Source: Chloracidobacterium sp. CP2_5A (lineage in GTDB: Bacteria; Acidobacteriota; Blastocatellia; Chloracidobacteriales; Chloracidobacteriaceae). Taken from it: 38,596 bases of DNA. The position numbers and the translations under genes were made by a program. Shown one piece after another: positions 3,340-37,865 of the stretch. Location: assembly GCA_002254845.1 (NCBI GenBank), contig NKPT01000033.1, positions 1 to 38,596 of the forward strand. The letters run 5' to 3'. The stretch's first letter is position 1; the number at the start of each line of letters is the position of its first letter. The notes under the pieces are model-generated. The model had not been told where the DNA came from. It ran no database searches and saw nothing but the letters and a program-made list of their open reading frames with translations.

Positions 3340-3364
3340 AAAGGCGGAGCGCTCACGCCTTTTT
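3340..3364 (+). terminator. Terminator-like hairpin after the pseudogene
   Basis: AAAGGCG (3340-3346) pairs with CGCCTTT (3356-3362), followed by a five-T run on the plus strand. The loop itself contains the self-complementary GAGCGCTC. It would end transcription of the pseudogene. The minus-strand kinase-like gene stops inside the same hairpin, so it may work in both directions, although the T-run on that side is short. Confidence 0.6.
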
Positions 3365-4252
3365 AGCGGCGGCTCTGGCGATCTGACGCTTGCTGTTGGC
3401 TCTTGCTCTCTTGGCTCTTGGCTGGCTTTCGGCTTTGGCCGCGTCCGCCGGCGCCGCCAGGGCGGCGGCGAACTCTTCCCGTCGCCCCTCAATGTCTTCT
3501 TCCGCCGCGGCGGCGGGACGACCCGACGGGATCGCCAAGACGCGCGCGCCATCCACGACTGGCGCCTCCTTCGGAAGAACTTTCCGAATCTTCCGCTGCA
3601 AGACGCTGAACACCTTGTTGACGGTTTGGGTGGCGTCCACGGTATCAAAGCCATACTGCCGCGCTAGTTGGTCGAAGGTCGCCAGCAGCCGGGTTTGATA
3701 CTGCACAAAGCAGTCATACATATCGTCGCCGGGCAGAAAGTCCATTCCCGACTCCCAGTAATCAAAGCCGGTGCTGGCCAGGACGCGCGGGATAAGGTTT
3801 GGCAAGTCAATCTTCAGGTAAAAAACCGCGTCCGGCTTGAGCGCGAAGCCATAAACGCTCTGAATCCAGTCGGCGGCAGCGCCGCGCACGATCGCCCGCG
3901 CCATGAGCGAATACACGTAGCGGTCGGTCAACACCACAAAGCCCGCCCGCAGCGCCGGAATCATCTGATTTTCCAGCCGGTCAGCCAGATCGGTCGCGTA
4001 GAACAGGTCCATCGTCTTCGCCCCGAGCGTATGACCTTCCTTGGCTTTTTTGAGGCCGCGCCCGGCCAGCAGCGAGCGCGTCAGCCCGGTGTCCAGCACG
4101 GCGAAGCCGGACGATTCAAGCCAATTCTTGAGCAGCGCGATCTGCGTTGAGCGGCCGACGCCATCCGTTCCCTCCAGGACGATCAAGCGGCCGGGCAGAG
4201 TCTTTTCTTGAAAGCCAGACAATCCGGCTCCAAAAAACTGTACTTTGGTCAT
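3353..4252 (-). CDS. Thymidylate kinase-like protein with altered P-loop (Lys to Arg)
   Basis: A 299-residue paralogue of the next gene upstream. It keeps the thymidylate-kinase-like layout: P-loop near residues 27-36, a DRYVYS motif, and a C-terminal Asp-Ala-Thr segment. The P-loop reads GTDGVGRST, with Arg34 where nucleoside-phosphate kinases have the invariant Lys. The classic dTMP-kinase EPGGT loop is not present. From about residue 235 a 65-residue tail rich in Ala, Lys and Arg has been added; it looks disordered and could bind nucleic acid or polyphosphate. ATG 4252 has GGAG 8 nt upstream. It lies 46 bases after the canonical paralogue and is probably co-transcribed with it. Possible roles are a regulatory or scaffolding partner of the upstream kinase, or a kinase with weakened activity; neither can be settled here. 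Confidence 0.75.
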   Translation of the reverse strand: MTKVQFFGAGLSGFQEKTLPGRLIVLEGTDGVGRSTQIALLKNWLESSGFAVLDTGLTRSLLAGRGLKKAKEGHTLGAKTMDLFYATDLADRLENQMIPALRAGFVVLTDRYVYSLMARAIVRGAAADWIQSVYGFALKPDAVFYLKIDLPNLIPRVLASTGFDYWESGMDFLPGDDMYDCFVQYQTRLLATFDQLARQYGFDTVDATQTVNKVFSVLQRKIRKVLPKEAPVVDGARVLAIPSGRPAAAAEEDIEGRREEFAAALAAPADAAKAESQPRAKRARANSKRQIARAAAKKA

Positions 4253-4298
4253 ATCAGTGGCTCCATAAACCGACGCGCGAAGGCATCGCCGCCTTCGG

Positions 4299-5000
4299 CT
4301 ACCGCCGCCGGCGCCCCTGACGGAACTGCGGGTCGCGCAAGACGTCCTTCAGATGCGGCTTGACGAGGCTGCGGACAATCCGCTGCTGCTCGGTTATGGG
4401 CAGTGTCGCGTCAATCACTGTCAAGTTGTATTCCTCCACCAGTCGGTCGTACTCCTCCAGAATCTTGCCCTGGAAAATCCGAAACGACTCGTAGGGGTCT
4501 TCCGACCAGCCCATATCCAGACCGGCCTCGTAATATTTCAACTCCGGGCGCCCAACCAGAATGCGGTCGAGCGCCGTCTCCAACGGCACGCGAAAGTAAA
4601 AGCCAATGGTTGGCGGGACGGCGAAGCCGTACACCTTGCGCACCCAATCGCGGTCGTTGCCGCGCGCCGAGTCGCGGGCGAACGCCGTGTAAACGTAGCG
4701 GTCGGCCAGCACGATCGCGCCCGCCTTGAGCGGCGGAATAATGTCGCGCTCCGTGCGGTCAGCGAAGTCCGTCGCGTGGATCAGGCTGAAGGTTGTCGGC
4801 GAAAGCGCGCGAGTGTCTTTGCCGAGCTTAGTCGTTTTCTTGACGAGCGGCGAGGAGTTCCACGCGCTGAAAAAGACGCAGTACCCTTCCGCCACCAGCC
4901 ATTTGTGCAGCAAGTCGAGTTGGGTGCTTTTGCCGGAACCGTCAATGCCTTCGACAATAAAAAGCTTTCCGGGGAGACCGGTCGTGAGTCCAGCCTGCAT
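4299..5000 (-). CDS. tmk: Thymidylate kinase-family protein
   Basis: A 233-residue P-loop kinase with an intact Walker A, EGIDGSGKST, at residues 17-26 (Lys24), followed by STQLDLLHKWL, and a DRYVYT motif for the nucleoside-monophosphate site. Known members phosphorylate dTMP to dTDP for DNA synthesis in the cytosol. The loop after beta-2, EPGGT in typical Tmk, reads differently here (SAWNSSPLVKK), so it belongs to a divergent branch and its exact nucleotide is not certain. ATG 5000 has GGAG 6 nt upstream. It lies between serine acetyltransferase and the Lys-to-Arg paralogue, all on one strand with gaps of 63 and 46 bases, consistent with a three-gene operon. Confidence 0.72.
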   Translation of the reverse strand: MQAGLTTGLPGKLFIVEGIDGSGKSTQLDLLHKWLVAEGYCVFFSAWNSSPLVKKTTKLGKDTRALSPTTFSLIHATDFADRTERDIIPPLKAGAIVLADRYVYTAFARDSARGNDRDWVRKVYGFAVPPTIGFYFRVPLETALDRILVGRPELKYYEAGLDMGWSEDPYESFRIFQGKILEEYDRLVEEYNLTVIDATLPITEQQRIVRSLVKPHLKDVLRDPQFRQGRRRR

Positions 5001-32443: not shown

Positions 32444-32487
32444 TACACTTTCCGTCGAACATGGGTTGTGCTGCCTCCGAAAGTGTA
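32444..32487. promoter_or_regulatory. Dyad in the DICT gene leader
   Basis: TACACTTTC (32444-32452) and GAAAGTGTA (32479-32487) form a perfect 9-bp inverted repeat around a 26-base centre, about 110 bases upstream of the DICT-domain gene. It may be a split operator or a hairpin in the leader. The intergenic stretch 32382-32597 otherwise shows nothing I recognise. Confidence 0.4.
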
Positions 32488-32597
32488 CGAAAATAAACTT
32501 AACCGTTGGATACTGCGTTAAGCTCCGACGAGTTTTGTCCCCGGCAGCCTATCCCGCCGGTCGCCGATGGGGACGCGGTTGCCATGGGAGTCTTGCC

Positions 32598-33191
32598 ATG
32601 TCAGCACCCATCGCAGAGACCTTCGATAACATTGTCATCCACCTGGATGCGCGCGCCGAGCGTAACGGGGGCGGGCTGCCTGTCACTGAAACCGATACCT
32701 TTCGGACACTTAACTTTTCGCTCATGCTGAGCATTTCGCACTACATCGAGGACCGCTTCATTGAGAAGCGGCTGTCCGGCTTGTTTATCGCCTCGTTTCA
32801 AAAACTCTCGCTGTTTGTGCCGCAGCAAGAGCGTTATGCCGCCTTGGCGCGGACATCCAAGGACGTCTGGATTATTGGCGAGCCGGACATCCCGCCGCCA
32901 CTTTTAGCGAATAGCGTCCAGTTTTTCCGTCCGGCTGATAGCGCCTGCCGCGATTATTGGATCGTCCTGAGCGATGATCCGCGGTTTCGCATCGCGCTTT
33001 TCGCGCGCGAGCGGCGCAGCGCGGCGGCCGCGCCTGGCAAGAACGGGCATGTCAGCGGAAAACGCAGCTTCGAAGGCTTCTGGACCTATCGTGATGAGTA
33101 TATTGATGCCATCCGCGACAGCATCCAAACCTACTATGCCAAGCAGGAGCTGCGGGTCATGCCCCAAGCGGACGCGGTGGGCATCCCATAG
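32598..33191 (+). CDS. DICT sensory-domain protein
   Basis: A 197-residue protein made almost entirely of a DICT domain, a sensor module usually found joined to GGDEF, EAL, histidine kinase or MerR-type domains in cyanobacteria and other bacteria. Family-like segments: LFIASFQKLSLFVPQQERYAALA, GEPDIPPP, a beta-strand ending WIVLSDDPRFRIALFARER, and FEGFWTYRDEYI near the end. No output domain is fused, and none lies next to it, so a partner protein is expected. ATG 32598 has GGGAG 7 nt upstream; an open frame extends further 5' but without sense. The last 35 bases overlap the end of the convergent ubiquitin-like gene. Confidence 0.8.
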   Translation: MSAPIAETFDNIVIHLDARAERNGGGLPVTETDTFRTLNFSLMLSISHYIEDRFIEKRLSGLFIASFQKLSLFVPQQERYAALARTSKDVWIIGEPDIPPPLLANSVQFFRPADSACRDYWIVLSDDPRFRIALFARERRSAAAAPGKNGHVSGKRSFEGFWTYRDEYIDAIRDSIQTYYAKQELRVMPQADAVGIP

Positions 33192-33459
33192 CCGGCTGGC
33201 CCCGACGCTCCGCCGATCCCCCGCGCGTGTTGAGAAAAATGCCGATTGTATCCCCAGACACAATGCCCGCTTGGGCGAGCGTCTGGTTGGGACGTAGCTG
33301 CATATTCCGAAAGACAAGCGTAGCCCCCGGTATATTGGGGATAACGCCAGCTTCAACCAGGTTTCGCAAAATTGCATCGGCGGTCATGTCGTCAGAAACC
33401 GTGACTTCCACTTCCTTCCCGTTGTTTTCATTGCGAAAAGTAATGTCAACATCCGACAT
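33157..33459 (-). CDS. Ubiquitin-like beta-grasp protein (EsaB/YukD-like) with internal Arg-Gly-Gly
   Basis: A 100-residue protein. Residues 1-78 read as a ubiquitin-like beta-grasp domain: VDITFRNENNGKEVEVTV (beta hairpin), ADAILRNLVEAG (helix), ATLVFRNMQLRPNQTLAQAGI (strands 3-4 with the ubiquitin-like kinked segment), GDTIGIFLNTRGG (last strand). The ubiquitin hallmark Arg-Gly-Gly at 79-81 is followed by a 19-residue tail (SAERRGQPAMGCPPRPLGA). For E1-dependent conjugation the tail would have to be cut after Gly81. ATG 33459 with GAGG 9 nt upstream was preferred to an earlier TTG. It is the last gene of a strand-collinear run with a membrane zinc-ribbon protein (37 bases upstream) and an E1-like adenylyltransferase. 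The last 35 bases overlap the DICT gene on the other strand. Confidence 0.78.
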   Translation of the reverse strand: MSDVDITFRNENNGKEVEVTVSDDMTADAILRNLVEAGVIPNIPGATLVFRNMQLRPNQTLAQAGIVSGDTIGIFLNTRGGSAERRGQPAMGCPPRPLGA

Positions 33460-33496
33460 GGAGAAAGACCTCAACTCCTGATTTCAGCGTCTTGAG

Positions 33497-33832
33497 TCAC
33501 AGCGTGTAGTAATCACAGCGGGCGCAATAGCCAGCTTGCGGCTCAAAGCGGTCATCTTGGTGACAGACCTCGCACCGCGCGGGAAGCTCGGCGCGCTTCA
33601 CGAGGAAAGTGCGTTCCAGGTTGCCAGCGAGGGGGGCGTCGCCACGGTCGCCGCTATAGTTGCGCCGGTGCAAGTCAACATAGTAGCGGCGCGGGAACAA
33701 GAGATAGCTCCCGGGCTGATTTCCGTCTTCAAGCTCGCGTCGCCCTTGGTAAAGCTCATAGAACTCAGAGCCGCAAGAGACGACCAGAATCAGCAGGAAA
33801 AGCAGCGAACCCAAGATTGCCACGCCTTCCAT
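33497..33832 (-). CDS. Small membrane-anchored zinc-ribbon protein
   Basis: A 111-residue protein: one N-terminal hydrophobic helix (about 4-20, ending in VVSC), a linker with many Arg, Tyr and Asp residues, and a C-terminal zinc ribbon with Cys87, Cys90, Cys103 and Cys106 (CEVC, 12-residue loop, CARC). The protein probably sits in the inner membrane with the ribbon in the cytoplasm. I do not recognise a named family. It lies between the E1-like gene (114 bases upstream) and the ubiquitin-like gene (37 bases downstream), so a role as membrane target, adaptor or RING-like factor for the module is a natural guess. An alternative in-frame ATG at 33901 would add 23 residues encoded partly by a 12-bp tandem repeat (VQLGVQLG). 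Confidence 0.7.
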   Translation of the reverse strand: MEGVAILGSLLFLLILVVSCGSEFYELYQGRRELEDGNQPGSYLLFPRRYYVDLHRRNYSGDRGDAPLAGNLERTFLVKRAELPARCEVCHQDDRFEPQAGYCARCDYYTL

Positions 33833-33850
33833 ATCGCCCGCGCCCTTTCC

Positions 33851-33883
33851 AAGCTGAACTCCAAGCTGAACTCGAAGCTGGAC
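33851..33883. repeat. 12-bp tandem repeat before the zinc-ribbon gene
   Basis: AAGCTGAACTCC and AAGCTGAACTCG stand head to tail (33851-33874) with a partial third copy (AAGCTGGAC). It lies in the gap between the E1-like and zinc-ribbon genes, or, with the upstream start, encodes a QLGV-type repeat. Such repeats can change copy number and so alter the spacing or the N-terminus. Confidence 0.6.
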
Positions 33884-33946
33884 ATCGCCCGCCGTCGTCA
33901 TCGGGAGCGCCCCGCCGCCGCGCGGACAGACAACGCTCGCCTCGAG

Positions 33947-35209
33947 TTAGTCCGTCTGCCGTCCCCAATCCGCGAGGACAGCCGCTAAGTCACCTGTCAG
34001 CTCGCAAGCCCAGCTACGACCCGCGCGGTCTTCAACCGTCAAGATATGCAAGGGAGGCACGCCAAGCTGACGCAGCGCGCGCTCCTCATCCTCGCGCGTC
34101 ATGGGCGCGTCTCCAAAGCGATGACGCGAGAACCGGGTTACAACTTCAATATAGCCCGCCGTCGTGACAGGGTGCGAAATCAGCTCGTTTATAGCAAAAC
34201 CGCCCGCAGTTGGACAGCGCCCGCAAACCAGCTCATCCTCGTACAGCAGATGCGCCGGGCGCTCAATCGCCATCGGTCGCCCACAGCGGCGGCAGGCCAT
34301 GCGTCGAATGTAGCGTCGTCCCAAATGCACCGTCACGCCGCTGCCCAGCCGCGCCTCCAGCGCATCGAGCGCCTGCCGCAACGAGGCGTCGGCGCCAATA
34401 GGCAGCTCCACCACCTGCTCAAGGCGACCATGCGCGAGGCAATGCGGATCAAGCGGCAACTGAATGGCATGAAGGCTATGCGTCCAGCCGTTATAGATGC
34501 GCCGAACCCCAAAGGCGACCGGCTCGCCATGGAGAATTTTCACCGCTTCCTGCACCTGAAGCGCGGAGGTCAACGCCGATGTCACCTGGATGGCGGGCAG
34601 CCGCTCCTCCAGCAGGTAGCGCTGCCGGACCTGCTCGCAAGAGTCGTACCGCGAGCGGGCATCGGCAAGTTGATCAGGCGTGATCGCGCACTCGAAGCAG
34701 GGGCCCGCGTCCGCCGAAAAAGCGGTGACGCTGCCGGTCAGCTCATACATGCCGGCATTCACCCACGGCACGCCAACCGCCCGCGCCGCGCGGTTGATAG
34801 ATAGCCGCGCCTCGTCGTTGTCCACGCAGCCCAGAATCAAATCAACCCGCCGGAAAAGCCCCAGCCCAATGTCCCAAACCAAATCGGCGTCCAGTCCGCG
34901 AACCAAGCCCAAAGTCTCGCGGCAAAGCGCCTGCGCCCGCTCCGCCGCAACCGCCGCCTTGCGTCGACCAATATCGGACGGCTTGAAGAAAACCGTTCGG
35001 CTCAGATTGGAGGGCGAAATGTCATCGTGGTCCACGACCAGCAGCCATCGAGCGCCAAGCAACGCCAAGTTCTTGAGCGTTTCGTTTCCCAGCGCCCCAG
35101 CCCCAACCACGAGAATGCGGGCGGCGCGAAGCGTCTCCTGCCGCCACCAGCCCAGCCGCTCCTGGCGATCAAAAAACGATTCGGCCTGCGATATTTCAGC
35201 CAAGGGCAT
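33947..35209 (-). CDS. E1-like/ThiF-family adenylyltransferase with C-terminal zinc and Ub-system domain
   Basis: A 420-residue protein. Residues about 15-230 are an E1/ThiF/MoeB adenylation domain: nucleotide loop GAGALG (36-41), VVDHDDISPSNLSR (Asp60, Arg71), Lys76, and CVDND (Asp130). CFEC (Cys171/174) and YDSCEQ (Cys191, a possible thioester cysteine) follow, then IQVTSALTSALQVQEAVKILHG, as in the ThiF branch that goes with prokaryotic ubiquitin-like proteins. Residues about 300-335 add a zinc ribbon (CRRC 306-309, CGRC 329-332), and the end (LGVPPLHILTVEDRAG) has the RHODANESE-free C-terminus of that branch. It should adenylate the C-terminus of a ubiquitin-like protein. ATG 35209 has GGAG 5 nt upstream. 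It lies 89 bases after the TPR lipoprotein on the same strand. Confidence 0.83.
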   Translation of the reverse strand: MPLAEISQAESFFDRQERLGWWRQETLRAARILVVGAGALGNETLKNLALLGARWLLVVDHDDISPSNLSRTVFFKPSDIGRRKAAVAAERAQALCRETLGLVRGLDADLVWDIGLGLFRRVDLILGCVDNDEARLSINRAARAVGVPWVNAGMYELTGSVTAFSADAGPCFECAITPDQLADARSRYDSCEQVRQRYLLEERLPAIQVTSALTSALQVQEAVKILHGEPVAFGVRRIYNGWTHSLHAIQLPLDPHCLAHGRLEQVVELPIGADASLRQALDALEARLGSGVTVHLGRRYIRRMACRRCGRPMAIERPAHLLYEDELVCGRCPTAGGFAINELISHPVTTAGYIEVVTRFSRHRFGDAPMTREDEERALRQLGVPPLHILTVEDRAGRSWACELTGDLAAVLADWGRQTD

Positions 35210-35298: not shown

Positions 35299-36153
35299 CT
35301 AACTGCCCCCGGACAACTCCGCCGCAGCTTGGCGATTGAGCTCCTGAAACTTCTCAACGGCCACTTGCGCGTCCTTTTCAAGCTGCGCGACGAGCTGCGC
35401 ATCCACGGTCGCCTTCGCCTGCTCCTTGAGCAAGAGCGACTTGTAGCTATAGGCATTCGCGTACTGCGGGTCGGCTGCGATGGCCTTCTCGATAAAGCTT
35501 AGCCCGGTTCGCGCTGCCTGGAGCAGCGCGTCAATATCTTCCTTCTTCCACTTGTCCGGCTTCGCCACCTCCGGCAGCTTGCCCGGCACTTGGGTTTCAT
35601 ACTTCTTCGATATCTTTGTCGCCTCATTCCAGTAAATGACGCCAATCGAATAGAGACACTCGGCTTTCGTGGTTGGCTTTTGATTCGGAAGCTCAGCGCG
35701 CTTTTGCAGCCATTCCTGATAGCTTTTCTGGTCATCTAAGGTTTTGTAGAGATCGGCGATAAAAGCGTAGACCTGATCGCGATCGCGGTCTTTCAAGCGG
35801 GCATCGTTCTCCGGCTTAAGCAACTCTTTATACGCCTCAATCGCCATTTTCGCCGTCTTGACTTGCTCTTCCCCATCCTCGCTGCCGACGCGCGAGCGAA
35901 TGGCGGTGGCGTAAAACAGCTTTGCCTGGACGAACTCAGGGTCGCGCTCTATGGCCTCCTTGAAAATCTTCTCGGCTTTATCGAAGCGCCCCTTGTTGTA
36001 CTCGCGGGCCCCTTGATTCAGCAAGTCCTTAGCAATGAGCTTATTGCACCCGGACATCCCAAATGAGAGGAAGACGGCGCCACACAGGGGCGCCGCCTTG
36101 CGGAAAGCCAATGTCAGCCACCCGAAAGAGACCTGCTGTTTCTGCATTGTCAT
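35299..36153 (-). CDS. TPR-repeat lipoprotein
   Basis: A 284-residue protein with an N-terminal signal ending in a lipobox-like FGMSGC, so it is probably lipid-anchored. At least two tetratricopeptide-like units follow: GAREYNKGRFDKAEKIFKEAI (about 48-68) and CLYSIGVIYWNEA near the middle, then FIEKAIAADPQYANAYSYKSLL (about 213-240). Lys/Gln-rich composition suggests a coiled, charged surface. Similar TPR lipoproteins accompany ExbB/ExbD genes in Acidobacteria and Bacteroidetes as accessory Ton-complex or outer-membrane factors. It lies 10 bases from exbD, so the operon tonB-exbB-exbD-exbD-TPR is tight. ATG 36153 has no strong ribosome binding site. Confidence 0.78.
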   Translation of the reverse strand: MTMQKQQVSFGWLTLAFRKAAPLCGAVFLSFGMSGCNKLIAKDLLNQGAREYNKGRFDKAEKIFKEAIERDPEFVQAKLFYATAIRSRVGSEDGEEQVKTAKMAIEAYKELLKPENDARLKDRDRDQVYAFIADLYKTLDDQKSYQEWLQKRAELPNQKPTTKAECLYSIGVIYWNEATKISKKYETQVPGKLPEVAKPDKWKKEDIDALLQAARTGLSFIEKAIAADPQYANAYSYKSLLLKEQAKATVDAQLVAQLEKDAQVAVEKFQELNRQAAAELSGGS

Positions 36154-36163
36154 AGGAAGTCAC

Positions 36164-36601
36164 TCAGTCAAGGTTATCAATTTGCAGGCCAATCGGAGCC
36201 GCCCCCGCGCCTTTCGCAATATCAATGAGCTTGAGGACTCGCTCATACTGAACATCCCGCGGTCCCTTGATGAAGGCGGCGCGCAGGTCAGACGGGCGCT
36301 TTTCCAAGAATTCCTTTAGCTCGCGCTTGAGCTGGTCCTCTGTTTTCTCTTGAGAGTTCCACTTGATGATCCCTTGGCGATCAATCGTCAACACCGGGAA
36401 GATCGTGTCGCTCGGCGACTGCTGCTGCTCTTTGGGCTTTTCTGGAATTTTGCTCTCAAAGCGATGAGGGTCCTTGTGCTTGATGACCATAAAAATAATG
36501 ATCATCACCAATAAAACGTCAATAAGCGGCGTAATATTGACATCGGGGCGCGGGCCGCTGGTATCGCTACCGCTAGGCCCGCCGCCAGTTGACATAGCCA
36601 T
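36164..36601 (-). CDS. exbD: ExbD/TolR-family protein (second copy)
   Basis: A 145-residue ExbD/TolR protein. A short cytoplasmic start, one membrane helix with the essential proton-channel Asp in ITPLIDVLLVMIIIF, and a periplasmic domain. The periplasmic linker has a Gln/Ser-rich patch and FIKGPRDVQYERV near the C-terminus. GGAGG lies 9 nt upstream of ATG 36601. It follows another ExbD gene by 73 bases; the two differ in the periplasmic half and may form mixed complexes with the ExbB encoded upstream. Confidence 0.9.
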   Translation of the reverse strand: MAMSTGGGPSGSDTSGPRPDVNITPLIDVLLVMIIIFMVIKHKDPHRFESKIPEKPKEQQQSPSDTIFPVLTIDRQGIIKWNSQEKTEDQLKRELKEFLEKRPSDLRAAFIKGPRDVQYERVLKLIDIAKGAGAAPIGLQIDNLD

Positions 36602-36674
36602 GGCGACTGTCCTCCATTTAGACTCGCTGCTCGGTTACGCCACCCTGACAGGCCGCTCAGGATGGGGCAAGCGT

Positions 36675-37106
36675 TCACTTTTTCTTGCGCTTCTCAGTGA
36701 CCAGTCCAATTCGGTCAATGCCGGCGTTTCGAATGGCGTCCACTGTCATGACCACTTCGCCATACGGGACAGTCTTTTCGGCGCGGATATAAACGACTTG
36801 ATCCTCTTTCTTGGCCTTTTCACGCATGAGTCGCTTGATGCGCTCGACCAGCTCAGTTCGAGGCACGGGATCGCGCCCAACATAATATTGCCCAGCTTGG
36901 GGGATTGAAACCACGACCGAGGTGTCTTTCGTGATATTCGGATCCTCATCCGGGTTATCGTTTTCCGGCAGGTTGACGTTGATGCCCTGAGAAAGCAAGG
37001 GCGTCACCACGATGAAAATAATCAACAACACCAGCATGACGTCCACCATGGGCGTCACATTGATGTCGCTATTGTAACTGCCACCTCCGCCAGCGGACAT
37101 TCCCAT
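36675..37106 (-). CDS. exbD: ExbD/TolR-family protein (first copy)
   Basis: A 143-residue ExbD/TolR protein with the helix VTPMVDVMLVLLIIFIV, holding the proton-carrying Asp, and a periplasmic region that reads YYVGRDPVP and VVYIRAEKTVPYGEVV, the fold of ExbD. A start with glycines (MSAGGGGSYNSD) is common. It begins three bases after the exbB stop (TAAGTCATG), so the proteins are translated together. With ExbB it should use the proton gradient to energise TonB. Confidence 0.93.
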   Translation of the reverse strand: MGMSAGGGGSYNSDINVTPMVDVMLVLLIIFIVVTPLLSQGINVNLPENDNPDEDPNITKDTSVVVSIPQAGQYYVGRDPVPRTELVERIKRLMREKAKKEDQVVYIRAEKTVPYGEVVMTVDAIRNAGIDRIGLVTEKRKKK

Positions 37107-37109
37107 GAC

Positions 37110-37865
37110 TTAGCGCGCTCCTCGCCGCTTGAGGAAGTAATCAATCAACTCGGATGACGAGTTTTCCATCTCGACGTTGTAAGCTTCGACCTTGCTGGTG
37201 AAGTAGTTGAACATCCACACCGCCGGCACCGCCACCAGCAGCCCGAACGCCGTCTCGATCAACGCCTCGGAGATGCCGCCCGCCACAGCGCCAATGCCCG
37301 CCCCTTCGGCTTCCTTCATCCCCTGGAAGGCGTTGATGATCCCGATTACCGTCCCAAACAAGCCAACGAATGGCGCCGTCGAGCCGATGGTCGCCAGACC
37401 TGAAAGGCCTTTCTTGAACTCGGCCATCTTGACCGCCACGGCCCGCTGCAGGGCGCGCTTGGAGGCTTCGATGACATCGCCGGAAAGCTGAGCGTCGTTC
37501 TGGTGCGCCCGAAATTCCTGTAAGCCGGCATTCACAACAACTGCCAAATGGCTCTTGCGATGCTGGTCGGCAATGTTGATCGCCTCTTCGATGCGATCAT
37601 TCTTCAACGCCTGAGCCACCTTTGGGGCAAACTCGCGGGACTGGGTCTTAGCCTGCGTATAGGTCAGAAACCGCTCCACCATGATCGCGATGGAATAAAC
37701 CGACATAAGAAACAGAATGATGGCGACGGCCAGCGCCGTTGGACCCATCTTCCGAATCATGCCGAGCAGGGTAAAGTCTTCAGTTTCGGCCTTGCCGCCT
37801 TCCTGGGCGAACATAATAAGCGCCTGCATCGTCAGCAAGCCGAACTTCGTGAAAAGCAACGTCAT
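37110..37865 (-). CDS. exbB: ExbB/TolQ-family proton channel
   Basis: A 251-residue polytopic protein of the MotA/TolQ/ExbB family: first helix near 43-63, a cytoplasmic loop, then GLSGLATIGSTAPFVGLFGTVIGIINAF and EALIETAFGLLVAVPAVW, the two conserved later helices that line the channel. It forms the inner-membrane proton channel with ExbD. GGAGG lies 10 nt upstream of ATG 37865. The tonB stop lies 161 bases upstream behind a terminator, so exbB probably has its own promoter; I do not see a clear consensus. Downstream genes exbD, exbD, the TPR lipoprotein, E1-like, zinc ribbon and ubiquitin-like follow in one direction. Confidence 0.94.
   Translation of the reverse strand: MTLLFTKFGLLTMQALIMFAQEGGKAETEDFTLLGMIRKMGPTALAVAIILFLMSVYSIAIMVERFLTYTQAKTQSREFAPKVAQALKNDRIEEAINIADQHRKSHLAVVVNAGLQEFRAHQNDAQLSGDVIEASKRALQRAVAVKMAEFKKGLSGLATIGSTAPFVGLFGTVIGIINAFQGMKEAEGAGIGAVAGGISEALIETAFGLLVAVPAVWMFNYFTSKVEAYNVEMENSSSELIDYFLKRRGAR

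Follow-up and report, generated by a model that had tools for sequence, protein, structure and literature searches.

The window examined here is the whole 38,596-nucleotide contig NKPT01000033.1 of Chloracidobacterium sp. CP2_5A, contig C133 in a 3.4 Mb draft genome (G000). Near one end it carries three minus-strand genes, all of which lie where an initial annotation, made from the sequence alone, had placed them. In order they encode an E1-like enzyme (E1), a small membrane protein with a zinc ribbon (ZR) and a beta-grasp ubiquitin-like protein (Ubl), with intergenic spacings of 114 and 37 bases. We asked what these genes do together and describe a pathway of ubiquitin-like conjugation to which they very probably belong. 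The features of the locus are as follows.

33947..35209, minus strand: E1-like Ubl-activating enzyme of 420 aa (open reading frame, Pfam, alignment and model)
E1 residues 23-257, minus strand: adenylation domain, with the catalytic-type Cys191 and a probable zinc site C171/C174/C257/H260
34637..34639, minus strand: Cys191 codon of E1, invariant in 54/54 aligned E1s
33974..34426, minus strand: C-terminal region of E1, residues 262-412, from alignment to eukaryotic E1s
33497..33832, minus strand: ZR, membrane zinc protein of 111 aa (open reading frame, hydrophobicity and profile)
33512..33616, minus strand: FxIK-zinc-ribbon module of ZR (module alignment and profile search)
33157..33459, minus strand: Ubl, beta-grasp ubiquitin-like protein, open reading frame of 100 aa (Pfam, model and structure comparison)
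33217..33225, minus strand: Arg79-Gly80-Gly81 of Ubl, its last conserved residues and predicted mature C-terminus
33157..33216, minus strand: tail of Ubl, 19 non-conserved residues and the stop, overlapping the 3' end of a convergent DICT gene

E1 contains one ThiF stretch in its 420 aa (Pfam ThiF, E=2.7e-45) and the motifs GAGALG, D130, C306RRC309 and C329GRC332. Across 54 aligned E1s, G36, G38, G41, D60, D62, R71, K84, D130 and C191 are invariant and N68 is nearly so; among zinc-type residues, C171, C174, C257, C306, C309 and C329 are invariant and H260 and C332 nearly so. Judged by these residues, the nucleotide site appears intact and a cysteine of the catalytic type is present. Cys191, which we take to occupy the position of the reactive cysteine of MoeB and eukaryotic E1s, would be the thioester cysteine. 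The structure model (pLDDT, the predicted local distance difference test, 89.7) has its best single-domain folds in MoeB and ThiF (Z 30-31; 31.0 against MoeB), and over longer stretches residues 13-407 align on SAE2 5-535 (4.4 A over 314 residues) and residues 7-406 on Uba1 411-1024. Alignments to SAE2, UBA3, UBA1, UBA6 and UBA7 entries reach model residue 406-408, and in several of these eukaryotic E1s they extend into the ubiquitin-fold region at the C-terminus. Since these long alignments across two domains stand at 4.4-8.2 A, a ubiquitin-fold-like (UFD-like) domain bearing the C306/C309/C329/C332 ribbon is a likely though tentative assignment for the C-terminal region. The UFD of eukaryotic E1s serves E2 binding.

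Ubl exceeds the cut-off of Pfam Rad60-SLD (29.8 bits, cut-off 23.8). Its AlphaFold2 model (pLDDT 78.7; pTM, the predicted template modelling score, 0.58) runs strand-strand-helix-strand-strand-strand, and its Foldseek list is led by ubiquitin chains (4.6e-7). Model residues 4-81 align on residues 1-76 of ubiquitin (1ubq; Z 13.0, 1.6 A over 76 residues), which bears out the beta-grasp fold that the initial annotation had assigned. The alignment ends at model residue 81, opposite Gly76. Each of the order's 14 genomes gave a single Ubl match at E<=1. The Arg-Gly-Gly (RGG) that had been pointed out in this protein is conserved in 13/13 Ubl sequences, the window's included, but it is not the C-terminus of the reading frame, as 19 residues follow. 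Three of the 13 sequences stop exactly at GG, and the other ten carry unlike tails of 1-21 residues. Because the tail varies freely, its removal is the best explanation, as with the archaeal pro-ubiquitin that is cut by a JAMM enzyme in the available part of PMC5654768; by this analogy the tail is predicted to be removed by a JAB peptidase. Beyond the beta-grasp fold, the likeness to YukD/EsaB is weak, and identity of Ubl with YukD of type VII secretion was rejected on a Pfam YukD score below cut-off (24.3 of 27 bits). YukD itself is reported as not conjugated, at least in the available text of PMC1779556.

E1 matches at E<=1e-20 were found in 25/147 relatives' genomes. The order E1-ZR-Ubl is kept in the window and 12 further genomes, hence in 13 of the 14 searched in the order: 7/7 of the genus, two of three other family members (G007 and G009) and 4/4 of a second family. 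Conservation of gene order had been proposed as a check with the initial annotation. The remaining genome, G008, a draft in 1090 contigs, has Ubl next to a fragment of ZR, and E2 and JAB genes are present. Genomes of the genus have E1s 75-88% identical to that of the window, and the figure falls to 57-58% for the family and 46-50% for the second family; as the trio is kept over identities down to 46%, its order is not due to chance. The E1 tree groups the order together with support of 0.998, which fits vertical inheritance. Ubl, with 72-96% identity to the window and 50 invariant columns in 13 sequences, is better conserved than its own E1 (46-88%). The E1-ZR-Ubl trio is therefore real and conserved in the order.

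The initial annotation had seen no E2 or JAB peptidase gene in the window, and the E2-profile and Prok-JAB searches likewise matched nothing on this contig; the genome, however, encodes both elsewhere. In the outgroup, four loci with an E1 of this family have an E2 gene near Ubl, two of them together with a Pfam-supported JAB. Searched in 18 genomes, a profile built from these four E2s matched once, and only once, in every genome at E<=10, with values of 2e-26 to 7e-24 in the order, and the Prok-JAB search gave over-cut-off matches in 18/18. The E2 of the window's genome is on contig C222. Its matching JAMM/JAB peptidase, which exceeds both Pfam cut-offs, is on C135, and a second Prok-JAB gene is on C158 beside another ThiF gene (G000:C158:66891-68338), the two forming a separate pair. 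In the second, sister family E2 follows Ubl in 4/4 genomes: G011 has E1-ZR-Ubl-E2-JAB consecutively, G012 has one gene between E2 and JAB, and G010 has its JAB on a different contig. The E2 and JAB genes of G007, G008 and G009 are neighbors on a contig without the trio. The idea of a compact, self-sufficient unit is therefore not supported, E2 and JAB being in the genome and sharing an operon with the trio in G011.

Both additional proteins retain the residues expected of their families. Cys95 of E2 is invariant in 17/17 rows, and a profile of 17 E2s searched against the PDB ranks UBE2B/UBE2A first (5e-9 to 7e-9), with E2 W at 2.4e-6. By these matches, E2 appears related to UBC proteins and to have a cysteine of the active type. 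Searched singly, the E2 of the window's genome has 2a7l (LOC55284, 1.3e-4) and 2mt6 (E2 W, 1.5e-4) as its two best PDB matches; LOC55284 is presumably the same gene as Ube2w. In JAB, E70, H146, H148, S156 and D159 are invariant in 16/16 rows and make up the full JAMM metal motif; the best PDB match of the JAB profile is N11-like JAMM (8e-18), and RPN11, CSN5 and BRCC36 are also matched.

To place the system in its wider family, we scanned genomes with the E1 alignment; at least 543 relatives were confirmed, of which 80 loci were kept. In 68/80 the E1 gene has E2, JAB and Ubl genes all within 10 kb, as counted with profile hidden Markov models built partly from loci that recur among the 80 (L093-L095). 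The other kept loci include five with none of the three, one with JAB only and three without JAB, often at contig ends; the three nearest relatives have Ubl and ZR only. Related-locus records include Planctomycetota, Chloroflexi, cyanobacteria, Bacteroidetes and Lachnospiraceae. The E1-Ubl-E2-JAB kind of system is thus already known and widespread in bacteria. Among these loci are natural Ubl-E2 fusions (L119, L136, L145, L147, L149-L151, L153, L155, L158 and L160), which mostly adjoin a second, free Ubl and whose E2 has a C-terminal string particular to its class, for example PRIKLK. One related system, L044 in G015, combines a Ubl-E2 fusion with a Prok-RING-like protein (0.00023, below cut-off) and a TIR-looking protein (named by eye); its E2 tail, ITFKPIDRV, resembles AITFKPVPPAG of a neighbor protein.

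Within this family the order carries a variant of its own. Of 70 scorable loci (10/80 were unscorable), 66 pair an E2 HPN motif with a Ubl ending in TAG, VAG or DAG and four pair HPH with RGG; there are no mixtures. Three of the four HPH/RGG loci belong to the order. The fourth, L107 of KSB1, falls outside the clade that the order forms with a class having HPN/DAG (node supports 0.873 and 0.914), so that RGG and HPH must have changed jointly at least twice, which is few. In its sequence motifs, the variant of the order is distinctive in having an RGG Ubl where other branches have Ala-Gly and an HPH E2 where they have HPN. According to the available text of PMC4630614, HPH is peculiar to the Ube2w family, whose members attach ubiquitin to the amino groups of protein N-termini. 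The E2 of the order shares HPH with that family, but differs in that the profile of 17 E2s ranks UBE2B/UBE2A above E2 W.

ZR has one hydrophobic N-terminal segment (Kyte-Doolittle 19-mer 2.56), an FxVK string and a C-terminal C2C2 ribbon, CEVC/CARC, with four cysteines as against the eight ligands of a RING. Strings of the same kind recur in E2 and JAB. The E2 tail of the window's genome contains HTFLVKR and a second copy, RFHIRS, at its extreme end, ZR contains RTFLVKR, so that TFLVKR is identical in the two, and JAB begins MTFRIK. The final Phe of the tail is shared by 17/17 aligned E2s. With an E2 anchor pattern that missed 55/71 E2s, the motif occurred in 10/10 seed loci (shuffled mean 2.1) and in 5/6 hold-out loci (shuffled mean 1.0), L107 being the exception. 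In JAB N-terminal regions the FxIK pattern was found in 13/13 of the order (shuffled mean 2.2), 11/14 of a related class (3.9) and 2/50 of other classes (3.8), in a count that leaves out JABs without the core pattern, N-terminal regions of <10 residues, L077 and L107, and whose shuffles treat related sequences as independent. A C-terminal E2 motif common to JAB in all branches was consequently rejected. Most E2s at Planctomycetes-like, Anaerolineae-like and Ubl-E2-fusion loci end in different strings, each specific to a class. Narrow patterns for these strings had no match in the JABs listed there, although by eye L158 JABs have similar strings. We read FxIK as a possible strand-like docking site for Ubl or E1.

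The ZR profile had many further matches in genomes of the order. An alignment of 36 rows defines a module of [F/L/I]x[I/V] followed by RCE[I/V]CHQxDx(F/Y)...CxRC, in which R, C, C, H, D, C, R and C are invariant. In 43 module regions, chosen from the strongest or clustered matches, 42 have [FLIM]x[IVL] within the 12 residues before the ribbon, and 42 of the host frames have a hydrophobic 19-mer (Kyte-Doolittle >=1.8) outside the module. The nearest upstream Met lies 8-39 residues before the ribbon in 36/43, mostly 10-20; two have no in-frame Met, and five instances end five residues before the stop. At E<=1e-6, each of seven Chloracidobacterium genomes has two matches, ZR and one membrane protein (the second module lies at G000:C5:53158-53262 in the window's genome), whereas G007 has at least 42, G008 16, G009 at least 45, G010 four, G011 at least 38, G012 12 and G013 17. 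The module appears undescribed: searches with its 36 members gave at best E=0.0016 in Pfam and E=0.13 in the PDB, the strings CEICHQ and CEVCHQ were found in no paper, and a literature search on Chloracidobacterium and ubiquitin found no paper that, by its listing, dealt with this pathway. It occurs in 14/14 genomes of the order and in 0/133 other relatives when the best 51 candidates per genome are scored. In the phylum, at least 8/396 genomes have it among the best 19 candidates per genome at most, and all belong to the order; E1 at E<=1e-60 was found in 16/396, of which eight lack the module among the candidates scored.

Taken together, these data indicate that the trio is, with high probability, the activation arm of a complete Ubl conjugation pathway that is conserved through the order, would proceed stepwise and may be tethered by ZR. 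For E1, Ubl, E2 and JAB we observe sequence, fold, conservation and co-occurrence, and in sister genomes a common operon; conjugation of Ubl by this system is likely. The chemical steps we infer would begin with the JAMM/JAB peptidase, encoded elsewhere, trimming the Ubl precursor to ...NTRGG. E1 would then adenylate Gly81 with ATP and take up Ubl as a thioester on Cys191, its UFD-like C-terminal domain would present the charged E1 to the single E2, and Ubl would move to E2 Cys95. From there E2 would pass Ubl to an amino group of the target, possibly an N-terminus given HPH as in Ube2w, and the JAB peptidase would reverse conjugation. ZR is predicted to use the FxIK string, also carried by E2 and JAB, to keep the machinery on the inner membrane face, with Ubl or E1 as the presumed partner of that string. 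A hydrophobic tail segment is present in JAB of 42/66 outside loci and in 0/14 of the order, and ZR has a hydrophobic segment in 14/14 copies; membrane attachment may have passed from JAB to ZR. ZR, for which the initial annotation had suggested the part of adaptor or target, may act as an adaptor and the module proteins as clients, and the spread of the module family across the order fits an adaptor or receptor role for ZR, without proving it.

Several observations weigh against this pathway or parts of it. ZR-like proteins gave no match at 1e-2 in L096-L169, and the best ZR match in the four outgroup genomes has E 0.033; with no convincing ZR in outgroup systems, the core chemistry would be independent of it. 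The FxIK pattern and the three JAB classes were chosen after part of the data and the E2 tails had been seen, the string is short, its shuffles suffer from the relatedness of the sequences, and outside one class JAB lacks the E2 tail motif. Three single E2s of the order that were tested score under the Pfam UQ_con cut-off (19.0-23.8 versus 27 bits). The 1090-contig draft of G008 gave no E1 at E<=1e-20. Finally, in the genus the pathway genes are split over three loci, so that joint expression is not assured.

The strongest alternative concerns ZR, which together with the module family might be unrelated to the Ubl pathway, the module being a general terminal sorting or zinc module of which one copy happens to lie in the operon. 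We consider this a real possibility, though on balance doubtful. In its favor, one genome holds at least 45 module matches and one Ubl, and the module was not found among the candidates scored in ten E1-bearing genomes outside the order. It is opposed by the fact that ZR keeps its place between E1 and Ubl wherever the trio is present, in 13 genomes of two families, and by an FxVK string that, in the window's genome, is the same in ZR and in the E2 tail. The coincidence of module and order also counts against it, but as weak evidence of a link, since one clade may represent one event.

Action of E1 and Ubl without E2, by direct transfer to ZR or membrane targets or with a non-covalent Ubl, is improbable. 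Neither E2 nor JAB is encoded in the window, within the genus both are separate from the trio, and the constant place of ZR between E1 and Ubl would suit such a scheme, but each of the 18 genomes has its one E2 match and an over-cut-off JAB, E2 follows Ubl throughout the sister family, with five genes in a row in G011, and E1 has a UFD-like domain. An anti-phage Ubl system of the Bil/Bub/CBASS sort is very unlikely. The ThiF domain is hit by PADLOC profiles for E1-E2 (1.4e-13) and BilD (1.4e-7), but E1 has one ThiF domain against two in BilD and Ubl one domain against two in BilA, as far as the available text of PMC11354881 describes them. Presence of the trio in nearly all genomes of the order, its fixed context in the genus and the support of the E1 tree speak against it, and a defence role was rejected for want of support from profiles, gene context and E1 tree, in an analysis that included no systematic search for nearby defence genes. 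A sulfur-carrier pathway with a ThiS/MoaD-like carrier and a cofactor adenylyltransferase, to which the ThiF family domain and the MoeB/ThiF folds might point, is extremely unlikely: the NCBIfam ThiF and MoeB equivalog models score far below cut-off (113 of 275 bits and 83.9 of 449), two further ThiF-family genes lie elsewhere in the genome, E2 and JAB partners exist, and the window neighbors of the trio are TPR, ExbD/ExbB-like, DICT and S1 genes.

A thiamine or molybdopterin role was rejected on the equivalog scores and the two other ThiF-family genes, which upholds the original view of an E1-family enzyme adjoining a beta-grasp Ubl and standing outside the cofactor enzymes. That view had been made to depend on what lies beside E1 homologues: Ubl, E2 and JAB do so in most kept loci, in a survey that included no search aimed at cofactor genes.

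The conjugation pathway favored here can be set beside several known systems. Operons with E1, E2, JAB and Ub-like genes in bacteria were reportedly treated by Burroughs et al. in 2011. They were described by Iyer et al. 2006 (PMC1779556), in the available part of which they share with our system Ubl, E1, E2 and JAB genes together, a conserved C-terminal Gly in Ubl and an E1 without rhodanese. The E2 of row 6d in that work lacks the classical His, whereas HP(N/H) is kept here (PMC1779556). Unlike those operons, the present system has a free E1 with a UFD-like end, a three-locus split in the genus, an RGG Ubl, an order-specific transmembrane zinc protein and FxIK tails. In Caldiarchaeum subterraneum, the pro-ubiquitin has a short tail after GG that is cut by a JAMM peptidase, and the likeness extends to E2 and to E1-like proteins with a C-terminal ubiquitin-like domain (PMC5654768, in the text available); the top PDB match of our JAB profile agrees with it. 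Caldiarchaeum has, according to the same partial text, a small RING E3; none was identified here, where no search was aimed at E3s, and the membrane zinc protein is added. BilABCD likewise comprises E1, E2, Ubl and JAB, but in the available text of PMC11354881 BilA has two Ubl domains, BilD has an inactive and an active adenylation domain, and the function is defence, which sets it apart from the system described here.

Around the trio, the genus maintains a constant neighborhood. Directly upstream, window 35299-37865 on the minus strand holds genes for a TPR protein (by profile), two ExbD/TolR-like proteins and one ExbB/TolQ-like protein (by eye). TPR/ExbBD genes are upstream of the trio in 6/6 sister genomes of the genus, and the block was not found beside it in six loci outside the genus. 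Downstream, DICT/S1 genes follow in 5/6 sister genomes, the contig of the sixth ending soon past Ubl. The DICT-domain protein gene (window 32466-33191, plus strand, Pfam 4.4e-10) is convergent with the Ubl gene; the frames overlap by ~35 bases in the window, and Ubl of the sister genome G002 stops at GG. Farther away, at 3353-5000 on the minus strand, are two adjacent genes resembling thymidylate kinase by eye.

In bacteria, ubiquitin-like systems are known chiefly from defence operons of sporadic occurrence. The E1-Ubl-E2-JAB pathway proposed here is dispersed and extends through the order; it is marked by its RGG Ubl, its HPH E2 and a zinc module of which the libraries searched gave no example. 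It looks like a pathway present in single copy throughout the order and lends itself to the study of function outside defence; the conserved part of its Ubl has an ending like that of eukaryotic ubiquitin, and the joint change of RGG and HPH suggests a rule for E2 specificity. Moreover, the zinc module narrows the candidate targets or receptors in a genome to a small number, in Chloracidobacterium only two at E<=1e-6, which makes the question of substrates directly testable. We offer as speculation, and rate as unlikely, that a single RGG-Ubl, a Ube2w-like HPH E2 that tags N-termini and the FxIK-zinc-ribbon module form a membrane-centered network throughout the order, the module docking membrane proteins (as many as 45 or more in a genome), ZR and the enzymes to the Ubl machinery as clients or adaptors. 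If true, this network would be a bacterial counterpart of the E3 and receptor layer, with a docking module in place of RING domains.

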